A stretch of 36,423 nucleotides of DNA from Chloroflexota bacterium (GTDB lineage Bacteria; Chloroflexota; Anaerolineae; Aggregatilineales; J027), in assembly GCA_022616515.1 (NCBI GenBank), contig JAKEEQ010000484.1:1-36423 (forward strand). The letters are read 5' to 3'. A program made the translations under genes and the position numbers. The notes under the pieces were generated by a model. The model did no database searches. It was not told the DNA's origin and saw only the letters and a list, made by a program, of their open reading frames with translations. Below are positions 2,398 through 30,666 of the stretch, piece after piece (the stretch's first letter is position 1; every line of letters begins with the position of its first letter).

Positions 2398-3435
2398 TGG
2401 TCGCTCCTGCACAACACGAGCAATATTCTCAATGAATGGTGCGCGTACAATCCCGTTTTCGGTGACAAGGCCGGTAATGTACCTGGCGGGCGTGACATCG
2501 AAGGCGGGATTGCGCACCGGATAATCCTCCGGGACCAATGCTTTGCCGTAAGGTGTTCGCAATTCGTCGGGGCCGCGTTCCTCAATTGGAATGTCTGCCC
2601 CGGATTGGATATTCATGTCAATCGTGGATGTCGGCACCACCGGATAGAAGGGCACACCATTTTCTTTCGCGAGCACGCCGAGATGATAGGTGCCGATCTT
2701 GTTGGCGGTATCGCCATTGGACGCCACCCTATCGGCCCCCACCAAGACAATATCTACCTCACCATGCGCCATAAAATGACCCGCCGCCGAATCGGGGATG
2801 ATCTCAAATGGAATACCTAACTGCTTGCATTCCCATGCCGACAGACGCGCTCCCTGCATCCGGGGACGGGTTTCATCCAGCAAGACGTGAATGTTCTTGC
2901 CCTGCTCATGGGCCATACGGATAACGCCCAGTGCCGTGCCGTAATCCACTGTTGCCAGCATACCCGTGTTGCAGTGATGTAAAATCGTATCGCCGTCCTT
3001 GATGAGTGTGGCTCCATTGGCTGCCATCCGACGGTTAATGACGACATCATCATCGGCAATATTTTGTGCCTCTTGCAGCAGGGCTTCACGCAGTTCTTCA
3101 GCCGTCACAAGGTCACTTGACGTGGCAAGTCGCAGGATGCGGTCGACCGCCCACATGAGGTTAACAGCGGTTGGCCGTGCTGCCTTTAACCGTTCTCCAG
3201 CTTCTCCGAGATACTGTTGCAGTGCCTTTAAATCACTGGTGGTGTTCTGATTGGCGGCTAAAACCATGCCAAAACTGGCCGCCGCGCCAATCGCCGGAGC
3301 GCCACGTACCACCATTTCTTTAATCGCGGTGGCGACGTCTTCGTGTGTTTCAAAGTCAACGTGAACAAATTCCCACGGAAGCTGGCGCTGGTCGATCATC
3401 TTCACCTTGCCAGCATTCCACTCTACGGTTCGCAT
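2383..3435 (-). CDS. mtnA: S-methyl-5-thioribose-1-phosphate isomerase
   Basis: The 350-residue protein matches the usual length of MtnA in the eIF-2B alpha/beta/delta-like superfamily. It converts methylthioribose-1-phosphate to methylthioribulose-1-phosphate in methionine salvage. The catalytic cysteine sits in HCNTGMLA (C155) and the catalytic aspartate in VGADRVASNGDTANK (D235). VRGAPAIG and DETRPRMQGARL are further family signatures. The start is ATG at 3435, with GGGAGA a few bases upstream. No other methionine-salvage gene lies nearby. It diverges from mnmA, and its 3' end overlaps the ankyrin-type gene by 15 bases. Confidence 0.93.
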   Translation of the reverse strand: MRTVEWNAGKVKMIDQRQLPWEFVHVDFETHEDVATAIKEMVVRGAPAIGAAASFGMVLAANQNTTSDLKALQQYLGEAGERLKAARPTAVNLMWAVDRILRLATSSDLVTAEELREALLQEAQNIADDDVVINRRMAANGATLIKDGDTILHHCNTGMLATVDYGTALGVIRMAHEQGKNIHVLLDETRPRMQGARLSAWECKQLGIPFEIIPDSAAGHFMAHGEVDIVLVGADRVASNGDTANKIGTYHLGVLAKENGVPFYPVVPTSTIDMNIQSGADIPIEERGPDELRTPYGKALVPEDYPVRNPAFDVTPARYITGLVTENGIVRAPFIENIARVVQERPLNLT

Positions 3436-3491
3436 ATCGTCATCTCCCTACTGTGCTGGAATTTTTTCAATCAATATTAACATTATTTATC

Positions 3492-3520
3492 TTGACCGCC
3501 GTCCGGTAAAAGTTTACGAT
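3492..3520 (+). promoter_or_regulatory. Sigma-70-type promoter for mnmA
   Basis: TTGACC at 3492-3497 and TACGAT at 3515-3520 are separated by exactly 17 bases. Transcription would begin near 3527, about 26 bases before the mnmA ATG. It lies in the 117-base region between divergent mtnA and mnmA. Confidence 0.55.
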
Positions 3521-3552
3521 GCTTATTGTAACCAAGTGTAGAGGCTATTGGT

Positions 3553-4650
3553 ATGGAAACAGTTGTCGTTGCGATGAGCGGCGGAGTGGATAGTTCGGTG
3601 GCGGCAGCCCTGCTGGTTGAACAGGGCTATAACGTCATCGGTATGATGATGCGTCTGTGGTCGGAGGAGAGCGTGAACGGTTATGGCGGTCATAACCGCT
3701 GCTGCACCCCTGACCAGATGGCAGATGCACGCCGTATCGCGAACAAAATCGGCATCCCATTTTATGTTATAGATACCCGCGAGTTCTTCTATAAGACCAT
3801 CGTGGAATTTTTCATTGACCAGCACGACGCCGGGCTGACTCCCAATCCATGCCTGCAATGCAACCGCCATATCCGCTTTGAATGGCTGCTGAACCACGCG
3901 CTGTCGATGGAAGCCGATTATCTGGCGACGGGACATTATGCGCGAGTTACAACCGCCGAAGATGGAAAAAAGCAATTACGTAAGGCGTATACGCTTGAAA
4001 AAGACCAGTCCTATGTCTTGAGTGTGCTGACTCAGGAAAAGTTGCAAAAAGCCATGTTCCCCATTGGCGAGTACACCAAGCCAGAAGTTCGTGAACTGGC
4101 CCAGAAATTTGGTTTGCCCGTCGCCAGCAAAGGCGACTCGCAGGATTTGTGCTTTCTGGGAGATGGTGATTACCGCCGCTTTTTGATGCAGCATCGCCCT
4201 GAGATGTTTGAGACAGGGCCAATTACGTTGTCGGATGGCACAGAAGTTGGTGAGCACAACGGCCTGCCCAATTATACGATTGGTCAGCGCAAGGGTCTGG
4301 GCATTAGCTATCATGAGCCGCTGTACGTGCTCAAAATGGATGTCCCCAATAATATTCTAATTGTCGGCACACGCGATGAACTCGGCACAGACAGCCTGAC
4401 CGCCCGCAATTTCAACTGGATTGCCGGGGAACCACCCTCAGCAGAGTTTGAGGCGGAAATCAAAATTCGCTACAAGGCAAAGCCAGCCCTTGCTATAGTG
4501 ACGGTGTTGGACGATGGTCGTGTTCGGGCGCGATTCGATGAACCGCTGCGTGACATCACGCCGGGGCAGGGCGCGGTCATCTATCAGGATGATTTGTGTC
4601 TGGGCAGTGGCCTGATTGAACGCCGGGAGTTTATCCGCGAACCTGCGTAA
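3553..4650 (+). CDS. mnmA: tRNA-specific 2-thiouridylase MnmA
   Basis: The 365-residue enzyme thiolates U34 of tRNA for Lys, Glu and Gln, using ATP and sulfur relayed from a cysteine desulfurase. The N-terminal PP-loop is MSGGVDSS (residues 8-15), with ATGHYAR near 125. The catalytic cysteine is C103 in NPCLQCN, and the persulfide cysteine is C200 in DSQDLCF. The C-terminal beta-barrel ends in the usual PGQGAVIY and LGSGLI pattern. Where the E. coli enzyme has DxxC, this one has CxxC (C100 and C103), plus a CC pair at 50-51; this variant also occurs in other bacteria. A GAGG ribosome site lies upstream. A YndJ-like gene follows closely and may be co-transcribed. Confidence 0.95.
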   Translation: METVVVAMSGGVDSSVAAALLVEQGYNVIGMMMRLWSEESVNGYGGHNRCCTPDQMADARRIANKIGIPFYVIDTREFFYKTIVEFFIDQHDAGLTPNPCLQCNRHIRFEWLLNHALSMEADYLATGHYARVTTAEDGKKQLRKAYTLEKDQSYVLSVLTQEKLQKAMFPIGEYTKPEVRELAQKFGLPVASKGDSQDLCFLGDGDYRRFLMQHRPEMFETGPITLSDGTEVGEHNGLPNYTIGQRKGLGISYHEPLYVLKMDVPNNILIVGTRDELGTDSLTARNFNWIAGEPPSAEFEAEIKIRYKAKPALAIVTVLDDGRVRARFDEPLRDITPGQGAVIYQDDLCLGSGLIERREFIREPA

Positions 4651-21315: not shown

Positions 21316-22908
21316 ATGCAGGACAATCCACTTTTGTTTATTACCCGCAACATCACGAACTTGCGAATTGTTGCGCTGGTTGCCATTATTTGGTTTACGC
21401 TTTTTTTTAATCTGGAACGATTGGACCTTAACGGCGAACCCATCATCAATTTCACAAATATCGCCTATCTCATGGTGGTGATGATTGGCTTTGGCATTTT
21501 GGCCTTTCCGAATTTGGGCAAGATTGACTTCGTGAATTCGGTGGCTTTTGTGCTTGTCATCGAGCAAGCGTTGTACATCCTTGATGGGACCCGTGTACAC
21601 CAGCTTGATAGAATGGTAGCAGATTTTATTGTGGTGAGCGTTACGCTGCTCGTCATGCGTCAGGTCAGCCATTATCTGGTCAATACCGAAAATGCGTTCA
21701 ACAACTACATCATGACCAGCGAAACGTCCCACATTATGCCCTTCGACACTGCGCTCCGACGCGCCGCTGAAGAAATCCAGCATCTGAAGCGTCTTAATGC
21801 AAATCTGGCGCTAATTTATGCCCGCGTATACAGCGATGATGCCTATTTAGCCGCAAGCCGCCATAACGGCGAGGTTGTTGACCAGCACCTCGCCCAGAGC
21901 TTCTATGCTCGGTATCTACAAGTTCAACTTGGTCGATATGTGATGGGAATCACGTACAGCACAGATATTGTATTTGAATACGGTTATGGGATTGCGGTAT
22001 GTCTGCCTGAAGCGGATCATGAGGAAGCTCAAAAATTCATCCACCAGCTTTTTGGCTTCATCAAGTCTGATGAACGCTTAACACTATGGACCGGTGTGGC
22101 CTATTTCCCTGAAGATGCTAACGATGTCGATGACCTTTTAGACATCGCACGTAACAATATGGAGGTTCACAAGAATGAAACTGAGATTGCTGATGATATA
22201 TCCCGGCATGGTGATGTGAGTGTCAGTATCACTGATCGCCTGCGTATCCAGGATCAGTCAGGTTGGGTTGGCAAGCTAGCCTATCAAAGTCCGACCTCAC
22301 GCGCTATTTATCGCCCCGTCAAACGACTGATGGACATTGCCGCTGCTTCGGTCATCTTGACCGCACTTTCTCCACTTTTTGCTGTGGTGACTGTACTGAT
22401 CATCATTGATGACGGTTTGCCTGTATTTTTTAAACAGAATCGTGTTGGCCTTGGCGGAAAATACTTCCGCATGTTTAAATTCCGCTCAATGTATAAAAAT
22501 GCTCCGCCTTTGCAGCCAACCATCGTCAAATTGAGTAATGGCGAGATTCGCTATGATTGGCCCGACAAAACCAGCGACGATCCACGAATTACCCGCATTG
22601 GCAAATTCATTCGCAGGGCCAGCATTGACGAGCTTCCCCAGTTGATAAATGTCCTGAAGGGTGACATGAGCCTGATTGGTCCCCGTCCCAGTTCATGGGG
22701 ATTAGAGCAGCATACCCTGCACCAGACCGCCCGTCTGACAGTAAAGCCCGGTATTACCGGCCTGTGGCAGGTGTCAGCCCGCGACAGCACAAACTTTGAC
22801 GAGCGCTTGCTGTGGGATTTAATGTACGTCGAGAAGATGGGGTTGTGGCTCGACATCCTCATCTTGGTGCGCACGTTGGGCGCGGTGCTTCGCCGGTCGG
22901 GTAACTAG
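21316..22908 (+). CDS. Polyprenyl-phosphate sugar transferase fused to a membrane / degenerate GGDEF-like module
   Basis: The 530-residue start at ATG 21316 follows AGGAG by seven bases. Residues 1-125 hold about four membrane helices. Residues 140-290 look like a GGDEF-type fold without its active site: the core ends in [19 protein letters not shown], typical of diguanylate cyclases, but the GGDEF position reads [13 protein letters not shown]. Residues 325-530 are a complete bacterial sugar transferase: KRLMDIAAA, a membrane helix, [38 protein letters not shown] and [14 protein letters not shown]. This class starts exopolysaccharide or glycan synthesis by loading a sugar phosphate on undecaprenyl phosphate. 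The middle domain may sense c-di-GMP or nucleotide; that is inference. Faces a paralogue of its first half. Confidence 0.9.
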
Positions 22909-23748
22909 GTTGAAAACAGTCTGACGAGGAACAGGCAATCTTTCGTTGGACTTGAGCGTTTCCAGCAAATCATCATATACCAACCCATCATCGGGGAAAT
23001 AAGCAACGGATACAGATGCATCAATATCCATCACATTTTTGAGGACCTGCGCAACCTGTTCAGCAATCATTGATGCACGTTCCTGCGTTGGACCTTGCAA
23101 GCACAAAATCAGGTTGCCCTGGTTCCATGCTCTGCCATCCGTTTCCCACAACAAAAACGTAACCAGTTCGGCAATCCGTAGTTGCAGATACATATATTTA
23201 ATTTCTTCACGTTGATTGAAGATGCGCGTATATTCGCTTTTGCTCCAACTATGATTAATTTTTACATAAAGCAGTGCCAATCTACGATCAAAACGGCGTG
23301 CCTGAGCAATTTTCTGCCGGATGGCGAGTTCGCCATGATGGGTGTGTTGGATAAGTGTATTGGTTGGATTAAGTACTGATTCTCGGATGGCATCCCCGAA
23401 TGAGAAAATAGACTGTGCAAGTTTTCGGCTGATCACGACAGTTATGCCCAGACCAACTATCTCAAGGACCATGATATACGTGTAGGTTGCTGCATCCATG
23501 CCGGAATTGAATGTCAGTATCTTACCAATGATGTACATGGCTCCGAATAGCGCCAGAATCACCTGCCATGACATCCGGTTCATCTGGACCAGTACGAGAT
23601 GACTGATCATGATGAATGCGCCAATCACATATACAAATGAACTGATATTGATGTGGCCCAGGAACAGTAATTCGTCCGGGCGTTCAATATTCAGCGCAAG
23701 AAATAACCATGCAATAGTAGCAATAATAAGCAACCTGAAACGATACAT
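22819..23748 (-). CDS. Membrane / degenerate GGDEF-like protein, paralogue of the neighbouring sugar transferase N-terminus
   Basis: The 309-residue product starts at ATG 23748; a TTG at 23754 is closer to AGGAG and cannot be excluded. About five or six hydrophobic segments (1-120) precede a GGDEF-like domain (130-285). It aligns by eye with the first 290 residues of the facing gene: [13 protein letters not shown] against [21 protein letters not shown] against LALIYARV, and [16 protein letters not shown] against [16 protein letters not shown]. The GGDEF motif is again missing, so cyclase activity is unlikely. No sugar transferase follows; the last 30 codons run antisense to the neighbour's 3' end. 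Function unknown; a partner or regulator of the transferase is plausible. Confidence 0.82.
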
Positions 23749-24068
23749 GTTCAATTATTCTCCTGATTAGCAGGTTTATGCTTGGGAGAGGGGGCACAAG
23801 ACTACTGTTATATATCCTATTAAAAATATCATATGTCCTGCGATAGATTTAATGGCTTCTTTACAATTTTCAAACAAAACTTGAGCTTCAATGAAGCCAT
23901 CACTAAATGGCTTTAAATGCTTTTAAATGTGTATTCTGTAGGGAGTTTGTCAGCCAGCGTGAAGGTAAATATTGACATATTTATTTTACGTACATTAATT
24001 TGTTTTCGGTTATAATTCTGACGGTAAACAAACCAATAAAATAATATCCACATCCATCTGATTAGCGG
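23749..24068. other. Non-coding AT-rich stretch between the GGDEF-like gene and aroQ
   Basis: No open frame of note. It should hold the promoter of the GGDEF-like gene (TATATAAC on the minus strand near 23810 is a weak candidate). A hairpin with arms AAGCCAT (23894-23900) and ATGGCTT (23907-23913) is present. TTGACA at 23972-23977 has only a poor -10 partner on the plus strand. I see no clear terminator after aroQ. Confidence 0.5.
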
Positions 24069-24497
24069 TTACTCGTTCACGCGATGTACTAGTCCCTCCA
24101 GCGCCAGCAGATAACTCCGCCAGCCAAATCCGCTCACCTGACCAACACACACCGGGGAGATATAAGAATGCTGGCGAAAAGGCTCACGCGCATGGATGTT
24201 GGACAGGTGACACTCAACGGCTGGCAGCCCAACGCCGGATATGGCATCGCGTATCGCCACCGACGTATGGGTATATCCACCCGGATTAATCAAAATGCCG
24301 TCAGCGTCTGTTTGCTGGATAAGATCAATTAGCTCACCTTCATGATTCGATTGATGAATATCCACCGTCACGCCAAGCGACTCTGCTTTGTTCAACAATT
24401 TCTGATTGATATCAGCCAGTGTCATCGACCCATAAATCTCCGGCTCACGTTGGCCCAGCAGATTCAGGTTGGGGCCATGCAGCACGAGGATTTTCAT
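24069..24497 (-). CDS. aroQ: Type II 3-dehydroquinate dehydratase
   Basis: The 142-residue enzyme removes water from 3-dehydroquinate to give 3-dehydroshikimate, the third shikimate step. Type II hallmarks are complete: [16 protein letters not shown] with catalytic Y22 and R17, [24 protein letters not shown], and [14 protein letters not shown] with catalytic H102. Family members form dodecamers. Its ATG overlaps the aroKB stop by four bases (ATGA). It is the last gene of the aro operon. Confidence 0.97.
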
Positions 24498-26056
24498 GTT
24501 TCTTTCAACCTCTCCAAAACCACCAACACCGTTTCACGCGGCACGCCCTTCACAATCACCGGTTTGCCGATGCCTTGCAGGGCAATGAAGTGGGACTCAG
24601 CGTCTTTCCATTTTTTATCCATCGCCATCGCCTCATAGATTTTCTCCGGTGCGTAATGGCGATAACATGTCGGTAAGCCCTGTTCGCGGACCTTTTCTCG
24701 AACGTAGTTCACGGTTTCGGCGTTAATCATGTGCAGTTGCTGGGAGAGCAGAGCTGCCCCAACCAGTCCAACTCCAACCGCATCACCGTGTCGCCAGCTA
24801 TAGCCGCTCACCTGCTCAAGGGCATGGGCGAAGGTATGGCCTAAATTCAGATGAGCACGTTCCCCGCGCTCATAGGGATCACGCTGCACAATATCAATCT
24901 TCACCTGAACTGCCCGCTTAATTGTTTCCAGCATCGTTAAATTCTCCTCCAGCAGTTCAGGGTCCGCCAGAAAACCCGCTTTGATGACTTCTGCCATTCC
25001 AGCACGTTTTTCCTCCGGCGGTAAGGTATCCAGTACACGCGGGTCTATTAATACCAGTTCCGGCTGTTTGAATGCCCCCACCAGATTCTTCCCCATTGCT
25101 GTATCGACACCAACTTTCCCGCCGACGGAAGAATCGACCATCGCCAGCAGGGTAGTCGGGATTTGCACCAACCGCACACCGCGCATGTACGCTGCCGCCA
25201 CATAGCCCATCGTATCGCCGACCACGCCGCCGCCAAGAGCGATGATGAGACCGTTACGGTCGAGTTTGTGCCGCGCGACCGCATCAAGCATACGAACAAC
25301 GCTGTCCAAATTTTTGTATTGTTCCCCGGCAGGCATGACGACCAGTTCTGCTTTTGGAAACCGCGCCATCAATGCCTCGCCGTAGAGAGGCGCAACATGA
25401 GTATCTGTGGCGATGATCGTTCTGCGATGAGCTAGTCCATAGACATCCAGAATATCGGGAAGATTATCGAGTAAGTCCTCCCCGATGAGCAGTGGATAGC
25501 TGCCTTCTGGTGATTGCACACGCTGTTCCGGTTCGCGAATGGCAGTGTCTTGCTTCCATATATGACTAACATGAGAAACAAGTTCGTTTATGTGTAGTCC
25601 TGACGTGTCCACCCGCCACCGGAAGCTTTCATAAACTGGCGCACGTTTCCACAGCAGTACTGCAATTTCCACCTGTGGGTCCTCGACATTGAGCAGCGGT
25701 CGATTGACATCATCTTTGATGCGGTCATAAATGACGACAGGTTGTGCTGTCAGGCAAATGATTGTTGCATCGCCAAACGCCATGCGATTGGCAGGATTTA
25801 GTAGTGCGCCGCCGCCCGTTGCCACAATCAGTGCCCCCTCCCGTGCAGCGATGTCGTGGCAAACTGCCTGCTCCCATGAGCGAAATCCAGCCTCACCTAT
25901 ATCAACAAAAATCTCAGGGATTGTCTTGTCTGCCCGCTCCACAACCACATCATCAATATCCACAAACGGTACACCATGTACTTCTGCGAGCGCTTTGCCA
26001 AGCGTCGTCTTCCCCGTGCCCATAAACCCCGTCAATACCAGCTTACGGGTAGACAT
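24494..26056 (-). CDS. aroKB: Bifunctional shikimate kinase / 3-dehydroquinate synthase (AroK-AroB fusion)
   Basis: ATG 26056, inside the last codons of aroC, is the start: the kinase fold begins directly after it, whereas upstream in-frame sequence is antiphase aroC. The 520 residues hold two enzymes. Residues 1-165 are shikimate kinase, with Walker A GFMGTGKT (10-17), DIDDVVVE and the GGGALL segment. Residues about 170-520 are dehydroquinate synthase, with the NAD-binding [37 protein letters not shown], and metal ligands in [21 protein letters not shown] and [10 protein letters not shown]. The two steps are not consecutive in the pathway. AroK-AroB fusions are known in some lineages such as Thermotoga. 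Confidence 0.96.
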
Positions 26057-27227
26057 AACCAAACCGCCATTCGGTGTTATGTAATTTGAATTCGTCAATT
26101 TTGCCCCGGCGCAGGGCATCAAACCGGGTGTGGAGTTCGGCAATGGTATCACCGCCCAATTTCTCCAGCAGTTCATCCGCCATAACGATACTTACCATTG
26201 CTTCAATGACAGGCACTGCACGCGGTGTGGCACAAAAGTCACTCCGCTCGTAGGTGGTCTGATCCGGTTCACCTGTTGCGAGATTCACCGAACCAAGCGG
26301 TGTCAACGTCGTACTGATAGGTTTCATCGCTGCTCGCACAATCAACGGCTCACCTGTTGTCATGCCACCTTCAAGCCCTCCGGCCCGGTTGGTGTGACGG
26401 CAAAGAGTACCGCTGTCATCAAGGTAGATTTCATCATGAACCTGTGTACCGCGTTTGCGGGTATTCTCAAATGCAGAGCCGATTTCGACACCCTTGATAC
26501 TCTGCACGCTGCACACCGCCGCCGCCAATTTGCCCGTCAAGCGCCGGTCATAATGCACATGCGACCCTAGACCGGGCGGCAAATTGAGGACCACGACCTC
26601 GATAATTCCACCCAGCGTATCTTTATCAATTTTTACCTGCCGGATGGCTTCCTGCATTTGCACAGAAGCATCAGGGTCAGGGCAGCGCACCTCCGACTCC
26701 TCAGCAGCGGCAAACCGGGCGGGATAATCTGGCGGCTCGTCACTAAGATTTGCCTCAATATCACCGATGGAGCGGACGTATCCACCAATCTCGACGCCGA
26801 ATTCGTTCAGCAATTTGCGACAGACTGCACCCACCGCAACGCGCATCGCTGTTTCCCGTGCACTGGCCCGTTCCAGCGCCAGGCGCAGGTCGTCATAATC
26901 GTATTTGATGGTTCCCGTTAGATCGGCATGTCCAGGGCGCGGGGTGGGCATCGGGGCAATATCGCGTTCGGCCCAGTTTTTCCAGTCGCGGTTATGGACC
27001 AGCATACTGATTGGCCCGCCCGTAGTTTTTCCAGCGATGACCCCGCCAGTAAATTGAACCTGATCCTGCTCAATTTGCATTCGACCACCGCTGCCATATC
27101 CTTGCTGGCGACGCAGCAGGTGTTCATTGACATCCTCTGCCGATAGTTCAAGCCCGGCGGGCATCCCTTCAAGAATAGCCGTCAGCAGCGGACCGTGACT
27201 CTCTCCAGCGGTTAAAAATCTTAACAT
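26043..27227 (-). CDS. aroC: Chorismate synthase
   Basis: The start at ATG 27227 is where the family begins (MLRFLTAGESHGP); the longer frame upstream has no homology. The 394 residues carry the known signatures: RRQQGYGSGGRM, GGVIAGKTTGGPI, RPGHADLTGTIKY and ERASARETAMR. The enzyme makes chorismate from EPSP using reduced FMN as a non-consumed cofactor. The ribosome site (GGGAA) is weak. Its stop lies 14 bases inside aroKB, and a 101-base gap separates it from the pentapeptide gene upstream. Confidence 0.97.
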   Translation of the reverse strand: MLRFLTAGESHGPLLTAILEGMPAGLELSAEDVNEHLLRRQQGYGSGGRMQIEQDQVQFTGGVIAGKTTGGPISMLVHNRDWKNWAERDIAPMPTPRPGHADLTGTIKYDYDDLRLALERASARETAMRVAVGAVCRKLLNEFGVEIGGYVRSIGDIEANLSDEPPDYPARFAAAEESEVRCPDPDASVQMQEAIRQVKIDKDTLGGIIEVVVLNLPPGLGSHVHYDRRLTGKLAAAVCSVQSIKGVEIGSAFENTRKRGTQVHDEIYLDDSGTLCRHTNRAGGLEGGMTTGEPLIVRAAMKPISTTLTPLGSVNLATGEPDQTTYERSDFCATPRAVPVIEAMVSIVMADELLEKLGGDTIAELHTRFDALRRGKIDEFKLHNTEWRFGYVYP

Positions 27228-27328
27228 AAATGCAATTTCCCATAGTGTCGTTTCAATGGTAGATACGATAAACGCCTCTATGGGAAATGGCAAGCAGGTT
27301 TGTGCGTTTTAATAGAAGTCCGCCGCGT

Positions 27329-28072
27329 TTATTCTTCGAGATTCTTCACATTGTCCATAACTGCGCCATCAAAATTGGTCTGGTAGAGCGTAGCACCCTT
27401 AAAGTCAACATCAGTTAAAATTGCATTTGCAAAGTTCGTATTTGTTAAATCAGTGCGGCGCAGCTTGGCCCCGGTCAGGTCACTTTCGATGAGAAGGGCG
27501 CGTCTTAAGTTGGCATCATTCAAAAATGTTTCGACAAATCCACACTGTACAAAACTCACACTCTGAAGATTGGCTTCCCCCATATCAGCCCCGCTGAAAT
27601 CAGCCCGTGTCGCCTGAGCGCCATTAAAGTTCGCACTGGTAAACTGAGCGTCTCTGGCATTGACGTCAGTCAAATTGGTCTTTATGAAATAAGCTGACCC
27701 GGCATCAGCATCCATAAGCACTGCCATACGCAAATCACTATTGGTCAAATTGGCGTAATGCAAAATAGCGGCTTCAAGATTAGCCTCAACCAGCCGACAG
27801 CCATGCAGTTTTGCGTGAGACAGCCTGGCTCGCACAAGGCGCGTAAACTCAAGGTCCGCTTCAGCCAGATTAGCCCCGTTCAGGTCGGCATTTTCGAGGT
27901 TGGCATTGGCAAAACTGGCTTCTTTCAAGGTCGCATACTGGAACTTTGCCCCCCGCATGTCGCAACCGGAAAAATTGAGACGACTTAAATCCAACCGACT
28001 CATATCCATCCCGACAAAACGCCGTTCCTTCTCCAGAATGACGCGAACTTGATTGTACGATATGGTTGCCAT
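27329..28072 (-). CDS. Pentapeptide-repeat protein inside the shikimate operon
   Basis: The 247-residue protein is built of A(D/N)Lxx-type pentapeptides from about residue 22 to 240: runs such as ANLENADLNGANLAEADL and DLTGAKLRRTDLTNTNF. These fold as a right-handed square beta-helix. There is no signal peptide. Its ATG shares one base with the aroE stop (TAATG), so translation depends on aroE. Known pentapeptide proteins include DNA-gyrase mimics (Qnr, MfpA), but most are uncharacterised and nothing here shows gyrase binding. Confidence 0.93.
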   Translation of the reverse strand: MATISYNQVRVILEKERRFVGMDMSRLDLSRLNFSGCDMRGAKFQYATLKEASFANANLENADLNGANLAEADLEFTRLVRARLSHAKLHGCRLVEANLEAAILHYANLTNSDLRMAVLMDADAGSAYFIKTNLTDVNARDAQFTSANFNGAQATRADFSGADMGEANLQSVSFVQCGFVETFLNDANLRRALLIESDLTGAKLRRTDLTNTNFANAILTDVDFKGATLYQTNFDGAVMDNVKNLEE

Positions 28073-28914
28073 TAGTCCTCCCTTAATGCGTTTTCTGCCG
28101 CCTGATACATCACATCAACTGGTGCCTCTTGCCCGGTCCACAATTCAAACGCCAGCGCTCCCTGCTGGACCAGCATCCCCAGACCGCCAATAACGGTCAT
28201 TCCGGCATCTTCGGCCTGTTTCATCAACAACGTCTGACGCGGACGATACACCATATCATATAGCACTGCCCCATGTGGGAACAAAACATCCTCGGGCCAG
28301 ATAGATTTTTCGATGTTGGGATACATGCCAACCGACGTACAATTTACGATCAAATCGACATCCGGCGCTATCTTACTTAATGCACTCATCGACTGAACAT
28401 GGATCATCAGTTGGCGCGATACCCCACGCCGTAAATTATTGCGCAGGTCCCACCCGGCCTGCTCTCGTCGGGTAATAACCGTCACGGTTGCGCCTTTGTT
28501 GGAAAGTCCAAGCGCCGCCGCATGGGCTGCCCCGCCTGCTCCCAGCACCAACGCATGTTTGTCATAAACGGGCACACCATGTGCTTCCAGATCCAGCAAA
28601 AAGCCTGCGCTGTCCGTGTTGTGCCCAACTAACTGCCCATCTTCAATCGTAATGGTATTGACGGCGTTGATGGCACGTGAGGCGAGTACGAGCACATCCA
28701 GATGCTCCATCACAGCCTGTTTATGGGGAATGGTCACATTCGCGCCCGCGAAATCTCCACCACGCAGTGAGGCGATACGTTCCTTGACCGTCTCCGGGGG
28801 CGTGAGGAGCAAATCATAATGCCAGTCACTCATCCCCATGTGTTGAAAGGCAGCATTGTGCATAGCAGGTGATACGCTGTGTTCGACAGGATAACCGATT
28901 AATCCCACTCGCAT
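28072..28914 (-). CDS. aroE: Shikimate dehydrogenase
   Basis: The 280-residue enzyme reduces 3-dehydroshikimate to shikimate with NADPH. It shows the substrate loop GYPVEHSVSPAMHNAAF, the catalytic lysine in ANVTIPHK, NTDSAGF with the catalytic aspartate, and the Rossmann glycine motif VLGAGGAAHAAALGL. Length is normal for the family. The stop overlaps the pentapeptide ATG by one base. The ribosome site is poor (GTGGG region), and 54 bases separate it from the lipoprotein gene upstream. Confidence 0.96.
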   Translation of the reverse strand: MRVGLIGYPVEHSVSPAMHNAAFQHMGMSDWHYDLLLTPPETVKERIASLRGGDFAGANVTIPHKQAVMEHLDVLVLASRAINAVNTITIEDGQLVGHNTDSAGFLLDLEAHGVPVYDKHALVLGAGGAAHAAALGLSNKGATVTVITRREQAGWDLRNNLRRGVSRQLMIHVQSMSALSKIAPDVDLIVNCTSVGMYPNIEKSIWPEDVLFPHGAVLYDMVYRPRQTLLMKQAEDAGMTVIGGLGMLVQQGALAFELWTGQEAPVDVMYQAAENALRED

Positions 28915-29826: not shown

Positions 29827-30666
29827 TTAACCTCGCACCAACACTCCCCCCAGACTCACTAAACCGAACAAAAGACAATACCCGGCGAATCCATAGAAAC
29901 CGTAGTGACGTACAAGTCTGAGTAACAAGACGATACATAAGAAACCGACGATAGCCGACGAAACAAATCCAGCCGCCAACGCAGTAACTAATCCATCTTC
30001 TAAACTCTTTTGGCTTGTAACAACCTCAAATGCTTGCATGACACCTGCCGCCAGAATGACCGGCGTCGCGAGCAGGAAGCTGAAGCGTGTTGCACTGCTT
30101 CTATCCATTCCGCGTGCCATCCCGGCTGCTATTGTACTTCCTGAACGCGAAACTCCCGGCAGGATAGCCAGTGCCTGTGCCGACCCAATGATGAACGAGT
30201 CCGTCACACCGATCTGCCGGGAGTCATCGAGTAGCATTTCTGAGTGATGTGTCGCCCATTCTCCATATATCAGTAAACCTGCCGTAATGAACAAATTTAT
30301 ACTGACAATTGCGGGAGTCGAAAAAAGCTCTTCAAAAAAGTCCGCCAACAGGAAGCCAATTACAGCGGCGGGGATTGTTCCAACTATCAGAAGTGTCAGC
30401 AGGCGTGTTTCGAGGTTTTGGTTCCAATGAAAATTGCGGGTTTTGATTGCCCGGAAGCCTGCCTGGAGCAATTGCCACCAATCTTTCCAAAAAAATAGCA
30501 GGATTGCCAGCGTTGTACCCAGATGAACCATCACGGTATAAATCAACGGCGGAGAATCCAGCCCTAACCACCAGGATACCAGCACCAGATGCCCGGAACT
30601 AGAAACAGGTAAAAATTCGGTTGCGCCTTGCACAATCCCAAGAATAATTGCTTCTAGCAAATCCAA
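29827..30666 (-). CDS. uppP: Undecaprenyl-diphosphatase (BacA family)
   Basis: The 279-residue integral membrane protein starts at TTG 30666, eight bases after AAGGA. It carries both catalytic signatures of the family: GIVQGATEFLPVSSSGHL near the N-terminus and PGVSRSGSTIAAGMARGM in the middle. UppP recycles the lipid carrier for peptidoglycan and other surface polymers by removing a phosphate from undecaprenyl diphosphate, and confers bacitracin resistance when overproduced. The same carrier is used by the sugar transferase at 21316. It lies 30 bases after tgt. Confidence 0.96.
   Translation of the reverse strand: MDLLEAIILGIVQGATEFLPVSSSGHLVLVSWWLGLDSPPLIYTVMVHLGTTLAILLFFWKDWWQLLQAGFRAIKTRNFHWNQNLETRLLTLLIVGTIPAAVIGFLLADFFEELFSTPAIVSINLFITAGLLIYGEWATHHSEMLLDDSRQIGVTDSFIIGSAQALAILPGVSRSGSTIAAGMARGMDRSSATRFSFLLATPVILAAGVMQAFEVVTSQKSLEDGLVTALAAGFVSSAIVGFLCIVLLLRLVRHYGFYGFAGYCLLFGLVSLGGVLVRG

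Follow-up and report, generated by a model that had tools for sequence, protein, structure and literature searches.

Two facing genes at the locus

Analysis of the window (the whole stretch of DNA that was analyzed, 36,423 nucleotides of Chloroflexota contig JAKEEQ010000484.1) revealed two genes that lie tail to tail on opposite strands. Gene A (positions 21316 to 22908, plus strand) is an intact open reading frame of 530 amino acids in which a membrane/degenerate-GGDEF module is fused to a monotopic phosphoglycosyl transferase (PGT), and its ATG is preceded by a Shine-Dalgarno-like AGGAGA. Hydropathy and structural modeling predicted four hydrophobic segments, followed by a long helix that runs into the core (residues about 7 to 134; 21334 to 21717, plus strand); in the AlphaFold model, helices span residues 5 to 37, 48 to 69, 72 to 90, and 97 to 137. 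The core, assigned from profile, model, and motif scan as a degenerate GGDEF fold, covers residues about 135 to 287 (21718 to 22176, plus strand), and a hairpin (17 protein letters) occupies the place of the GGDEF loop. Behind this module part of approximately 280 amino acids, the Bac_transf catalytic domain PF02397 was matched at residues 336 to 525 (22321 to 22890, plus strand) with an E value of 1.1e-62 and 211 bits against a curated cutoff of 27. The best fold match of A was PglC (8e37; Foldseek E value, 4.6e-11). A DE dyad and a PRP motif are the active-site motifs of monotopic PGTs (PF02397); A carries both, as D438-E439 and P456-R457-P458, and they are invariant across the fused family. 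NCBIfam matches in A span only about residues 321 to 529, and PF13727 was not found in A by the Pfam search.

Gene B (22819 to 23748, minus strand) is a stand-alone copy of the module. It encodes 309 amino acids from the ATG at 23748 or 311 amino acids from an alternative TTG at 23754, and its predicted degenerate GGDEF-fold core, located with Foldseek and VIA-align, comprises residues 128 to 274 (22927 to 23367, minus strand). The Pfam search of B gave no match at all. B has no transferase domain, and the LPET stretch is missing from it. These features agree with the first-pass annotation, which had described the plus-strand gene as membrane helices, a GGDEF-like core without its motif, and a complete transferase and the minus-strand gene as the same helices and core without transferase.

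The two open reading frames overlap by 90 bases (22819 to 22908), which the first-pass annotation had missed, and approximately the last 30 residues of B, its C-terminal tail on the minus strand, are read from the complement of the 3'-terminal part of A. The orthologue of B in G783, a genome of another family, aligns with B over residues 3 to 265 only. The tail of B, which falls outside this alignment, thus probably lies outside the functional domain.

Positions 24069 to 28914 (minus strand) hold a shikimate operon comprising aroE, a gene for a pentapeptide-repeat protein, aroC, aroK-aroB, and aroQ, several of which overlap; aroK and aroB appear by eye to be fused (24494 to 26176, minus strand). 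Neighborhood comparison showed that an aro operon beside the module is not conserved in relatives, so the position of these genes next to B is probably incidental. About 6 kb from the pair, a gene for a BacA/UppP-type undecaprenyl-pyrophosphate phosphatase was found (29830 to 30666, minus strand). Phosphatases of this type recycle the carrier lipid, on which A would depend.

A and B share a GGDEF fold without its motifs

Alignment of A with B yielded an E value of 8e-12 and 22% identity over 285 columns, covering residues 12 to 281 of A. The patterns common to the two proteins (73 protein letters), from which their N-terminal regions had been proposed to be related, are therefore real. Both proteins have four hydrophobic segments ahead of the core. 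Comparison of a profile of 17 module sequences with the PDB returned diguanylate cyclases, with DosC as the best match (E value, 3.2e-5). In a structure search with the AlphaFold model of B (mean pLDDT, 74.8), the highest-ranking matches were all GGDEF proteins, and superposition of the core of B on 4urq by VIA-align gave a Z score of 15.8 and an rmsd of 3.0 over 138 residues, the AF2 models being of moderate confidence (pLDDT of 71 to 75). Structure prediction and search thus support the cyclase-like fold that had been suspected from the sequence.

The Pfam search gave no PF00990 match above the curated cutoff in A or B; weak PF00990 matches occurred in 13 of the 17 module sequences, the best with an E value of 1.6e-4. 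In the motif scan, the GG(D/E)EF catalytic motif was absent from A, from B, and from all fused relatives. The RxxD inhibitory site (I-site) is absent as well, the corresponding residues reading YSTD in A and WETD in B. These results indicate that the cores of A and B are, as modeled, GGDEF folds without catalytic or I-site motif. No cyclase activity is expected because the GGDEF motif is lacking. A search for conserved residues lost in a complementary fashion between A and B, which would hint at a heterodimer, was negative (Fisher P = 1.0).

The module accompanies phosphoglycosyl transferases across Chloroflexota

Neither Pfam nor NCBIfam contains a model for the module, which by its sequence distribution is an uncurated family of Chloroflexota. 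Within the order of the window (Aggregatilineales), 24 of 154 genomes carry it. In nearly all of these 24, a single gene encodes the module followed by the transferase, and contig ends truncate two; fusion is thus the usual state in this order, and B is the unusual gene, also a point missed in the first-pass annotation. Elsewhere in Chloroflexota, the other orders and classes with the module encode it separately, as a protein of about 280 to 350 amino acids. Among 33 loci with stand-alone modules in the class, a same-strand PF02397 gene accompanies the module in 32; it lies directly downstream of the module in 30 and within about 100 bases or overlapping in 29, and the one locus without it is near a contig end. 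Pairing with PF02397 was also observed at 15 of 20 additional loci from the phylum and class. Of the five without a nearby PGT, three are among the most divergent members and one is near a contig end. The stand-alone module and the small PGT presumably form one operon. Outside the order of the window, module and PGT often lie in Wzx/Wzy-type clusters, and sampled module clusters contained genes for glycosyltransferases, Wzz, Wzy, and a flippase. The pairing across genomes strengthens a role of the module in glycan initiation, as had been proposed for this locus in the first-pass annotation.

A search of genome contigs with a narrow module alignment returned 15 loci, in Chloroflexi, Anaerolineae-type, and Aggregatilineales MAGs, and a plasmid search with the A-B gene pair returned no match. 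The literature search returned no paper on a GGDEF-PGT combination of this sort, which may nevertheless be mentioned in the domain-architecture survey of O'Toole 2021 (PNAS).

Three further arrangements were observed in the course of this comparison. In G051 (L047), a stand-alone module (2625 to 3680) directly precedes a fusion of a receiver (REC) domain with PF02397 (3717 to 4562), and by its domain content this locus possibly places two regulators on one transferase. A distant relative at L176:8730-9578 has an intact GRLGGDEF together with RxxD and, judged from these motifs, may be an active relative of the dead module. Wzz proteins with a C-terminal degenerate GGDEF domain are encoded at L104:11287-12459, L088:3707-4807, L159:4773-5876, L033:12006-13277, and about 15 more positions; several of these GGDEF domains carry RxxD, and the clusters also hold module and transferase. 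Dead GGDEF domains may be a common building piece of polysaccharide machines.

The facing pair recurs and derives from an old duplication

A fused and a loose module occur together in only two of the 154 genomes of the order, both of them MAG-like assemblies: the window genome and G783. In G783, the fused A' (531 amino acids; L210:152-1747, plus strand), the counterpart of A, and the loose B' (296 amino acids; L210:1841-2731, minus strand), the orthologue of B, lie end to end in the same layout as in the window. A and A' are 49% identical, B and B' are 39% identical over 263 residues, and each couple forms a sister pair in the tree with support of 100/99 or 100/100. The 5.5-kb contig of G783 showed no match to any window gene besides the pair. 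The A-B pair behaves as a unit. This recurrence bears out the conservation of a stand-alone partner that had been anticipated from the single locus, and B is probably not a mere relic, since the pair recurs as orthologues of both genes. Since their split, B and B' have each accumulated nearly one change per column and no stop, and B is probably kept by selection.

The pair had been explained at first by an inverted duplication, and a simple event of that kind within this lineage is not supported. The grouping of A and B as sisters, as expected for a recent inverted duplication, was rejected (AU test, P = 0.003), and so was the grouping of A, A', B, and B' as one clade (P = 0.002). Both rejections indicate that, as far as the tree can be read, the duplication behind A and B is old. 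In the tree, A and B group with fused proteins (100/100). A topology that holds all fused sequences together without B was not rejected (P = 0.35 and 0.39), and B is either a formerly fused gene now without its transferase or a sister that was never fused.

Proposed role of the module and alternative explanations

From the homology, the fold, the motif loss, the gene pairing, and the recurrence of the pair, we infer with somewhat better than even confidence that the module is a noncatalytic membrane subunit that gates the PGT, with A as its fusion to the enzyme and B as a loose partner subunit of A. Such a module would consist of about four membrane helices, the long helix, and the dead GGDEF fold and would dimerize via the latter two. 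It would hold or gate the transferase, acting in cis within A and in trans where it stands alone, and B would act as a trans subunit that contacts the module of A. By position, the module would replace the front of WbaP, in which four membrane helices and a cytoplasmic PF13727 domain lie ahead of the catalytic domain; this front dimerizes the enzyme and has been proposed as a UMP sensor (PMC10942596). A precedent for control by direct contact is EpsW, a response regulator of Myxococcus that activates the PGT EpsZ, probably by aiding dimer formation (PMC12802240).

Comparison with known systems revealed partial likenesses. The large monotopic PGTs (WbaP, WcaJ, and EpsZ) have, like A, membrane helices followed by a cytoplasmic alpha/beta domain and PF02397, and the same reaction class is expected. 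Hydropathy and the model place four N-terminal membrane helices in A as in these enzymes, whereas their middle domain is PF13727 and that of A is a GGDEF fold, which is encoded apart from the transferase in most lineages. PelD, with membrane helices, a GAF domain, and a degenerate GGDEF domain, likewise is a membrane-bound dead GGDEF protein beside a polysaccharide machine, and RxxD is present in many stand-alone relatives of the module. However, no GAF domain was found in the module, its partner is a monotopic PGT and not a synthase, and RxxD is missing in A and B. Membrane diguanylate cyclases have membrane helices, a long signaling-type helix, and the GGDEF fold in common with the module, which differs from them in lacking the GGDEF motif. 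In the EpsZ-EpsW system, a signaling-type partner acts on the initiating PGT, as proposed here, and in G051, a stand-alone module even neighbors a fusion of REC and PGT; the partner at the present locus, in contrast, is a dead-cyclase membrane module and not a receiver domain.

Two alternatives concern B, and both appear unlikely. B could be the decaying, functionless remnant of another, second gene for a fused transferase, as its lack of a transferase, the antisense position of its tail, the loss of the LPET stretch, and its place within or beside the fused clade would suggest. However, an orthologue in the same layout exists in another family, both genes are full-length open frames despite the divergence given above, neither has acquired a stop, and the fold of B is predicted to be intact. 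Alternatively, B could serve another transferase in trans rather than A, such as a short PF02397 protein of the genome. The window genome encodes six PF02397 proteins, two of which are short (201 and 255 amino acids), and in other lineages, the loose module goes with a small PGT. Nevertheless, the gene for B adjoins A and not the genes for the short proteins, and the arrangement repeated in G783 is that of A with B.

The remaining alternatives concern what the dead GGDEF domain would bind. That it is a docking piece joining the initiation enzyme to a Wzz protein with a dead GGDEF domain of its own is equally improbable: Wzz proteins with a C-terminal GGDEF-like domain occur in about 20 module loci, Pfam GGDEF and Wzz were both matched in all 7 sampled, and full-length forms are present in several genomes with fused modules (G020, G001, G005, G045, and G822), but the window genome, G783, G021, and G425 yielded matches to Wzz parts alone and none to the full-length form. 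Slightly less probable still is a module that works as a c-di-GMP receptor of the PelD kind, whose dead GGDEF domain would bind the dinucleotide at the RxxD I-site and switch the transferase. PelD of Bacillus cereus works as an I-site c-di-GMP receptor (PMC7112168). Properly placed RxxD was present in 38 of 53 stand-alone sequences, nearly all without GGDEF, and many genomes with stand-alone modules encode strong GGDEF proteins (6 to 22 in G379, G421, G581, G567, and G681). RxxD is missing, however, from all 18 fused sequences, from B, and from both G783 genes, and the RxxD-bearing genomes G365 and G281 gave no GGDEF match at 1e-10; these comparisons rest on incomplete genomes. RxxD and cyclases are thus only loosely linked in their occurrence. 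Several other fused-module genomes also gave no GGDEF match at 1e-10. In the window genome (80.6% complete), no GGDEF match was better than 8e-9, and EAL and PilZ gave no match. The sole GGDEF matches there, both weak, are two receiver-domain proteins (C432:4253-4576, L184, and C499:10476-10790, L185) whose GGDEF-like tails have GGDNF or DANDF in place of the motif. Because A and B have neither GGDEF nor RxxD and this incomplete genome shows no clear cyclase, EAL, or PilZ protein, c-di-GMP is, as judged from sequence, an unlikely ligand of A and B, and the nucleotide gating of this type put forward in the first-pass annotation was not upheld for them. By analogy with PelD, the stand-alone branch that keeps RxxD could consist of I-site c-di-GMP receptors.

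A broader version of the gating subunit reading is more speculative, although less improbable than these alternatives: dead GGDEF domains, on PGTs and on Wzz, might be assembly or gating parts of Chloroflexota polysaccharide machines, with a ligand-independent hetero-oligomer of loose B and fused A controlling initiation in the window's lineage.

Significance for control of glycan initiation

Control of the first committed step in Wzx/Wzy-type glycan synthesis has been described as poorly understood (PMC10942596, PMC12802240). The module, conserved but uncurated, nearly always lies next to the initiating enzyme or is fused with it and so offers a direct handle on this control. A dead cyclase fold sits where WbaP has its proposed nucleotide-sensing domain, and branches that keep RxxD can be compared with those that lack it. 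Since one branch carries the I-site motif and the window branch does not, the role of the front domain is testable by branch comparison. The pairing of the module with PGTs in many Chloroflexota, with a fused copy facing a loose one here, suggests, probably without c-di-GMP in this organism, an undescribed mode of control over glycan initiation.
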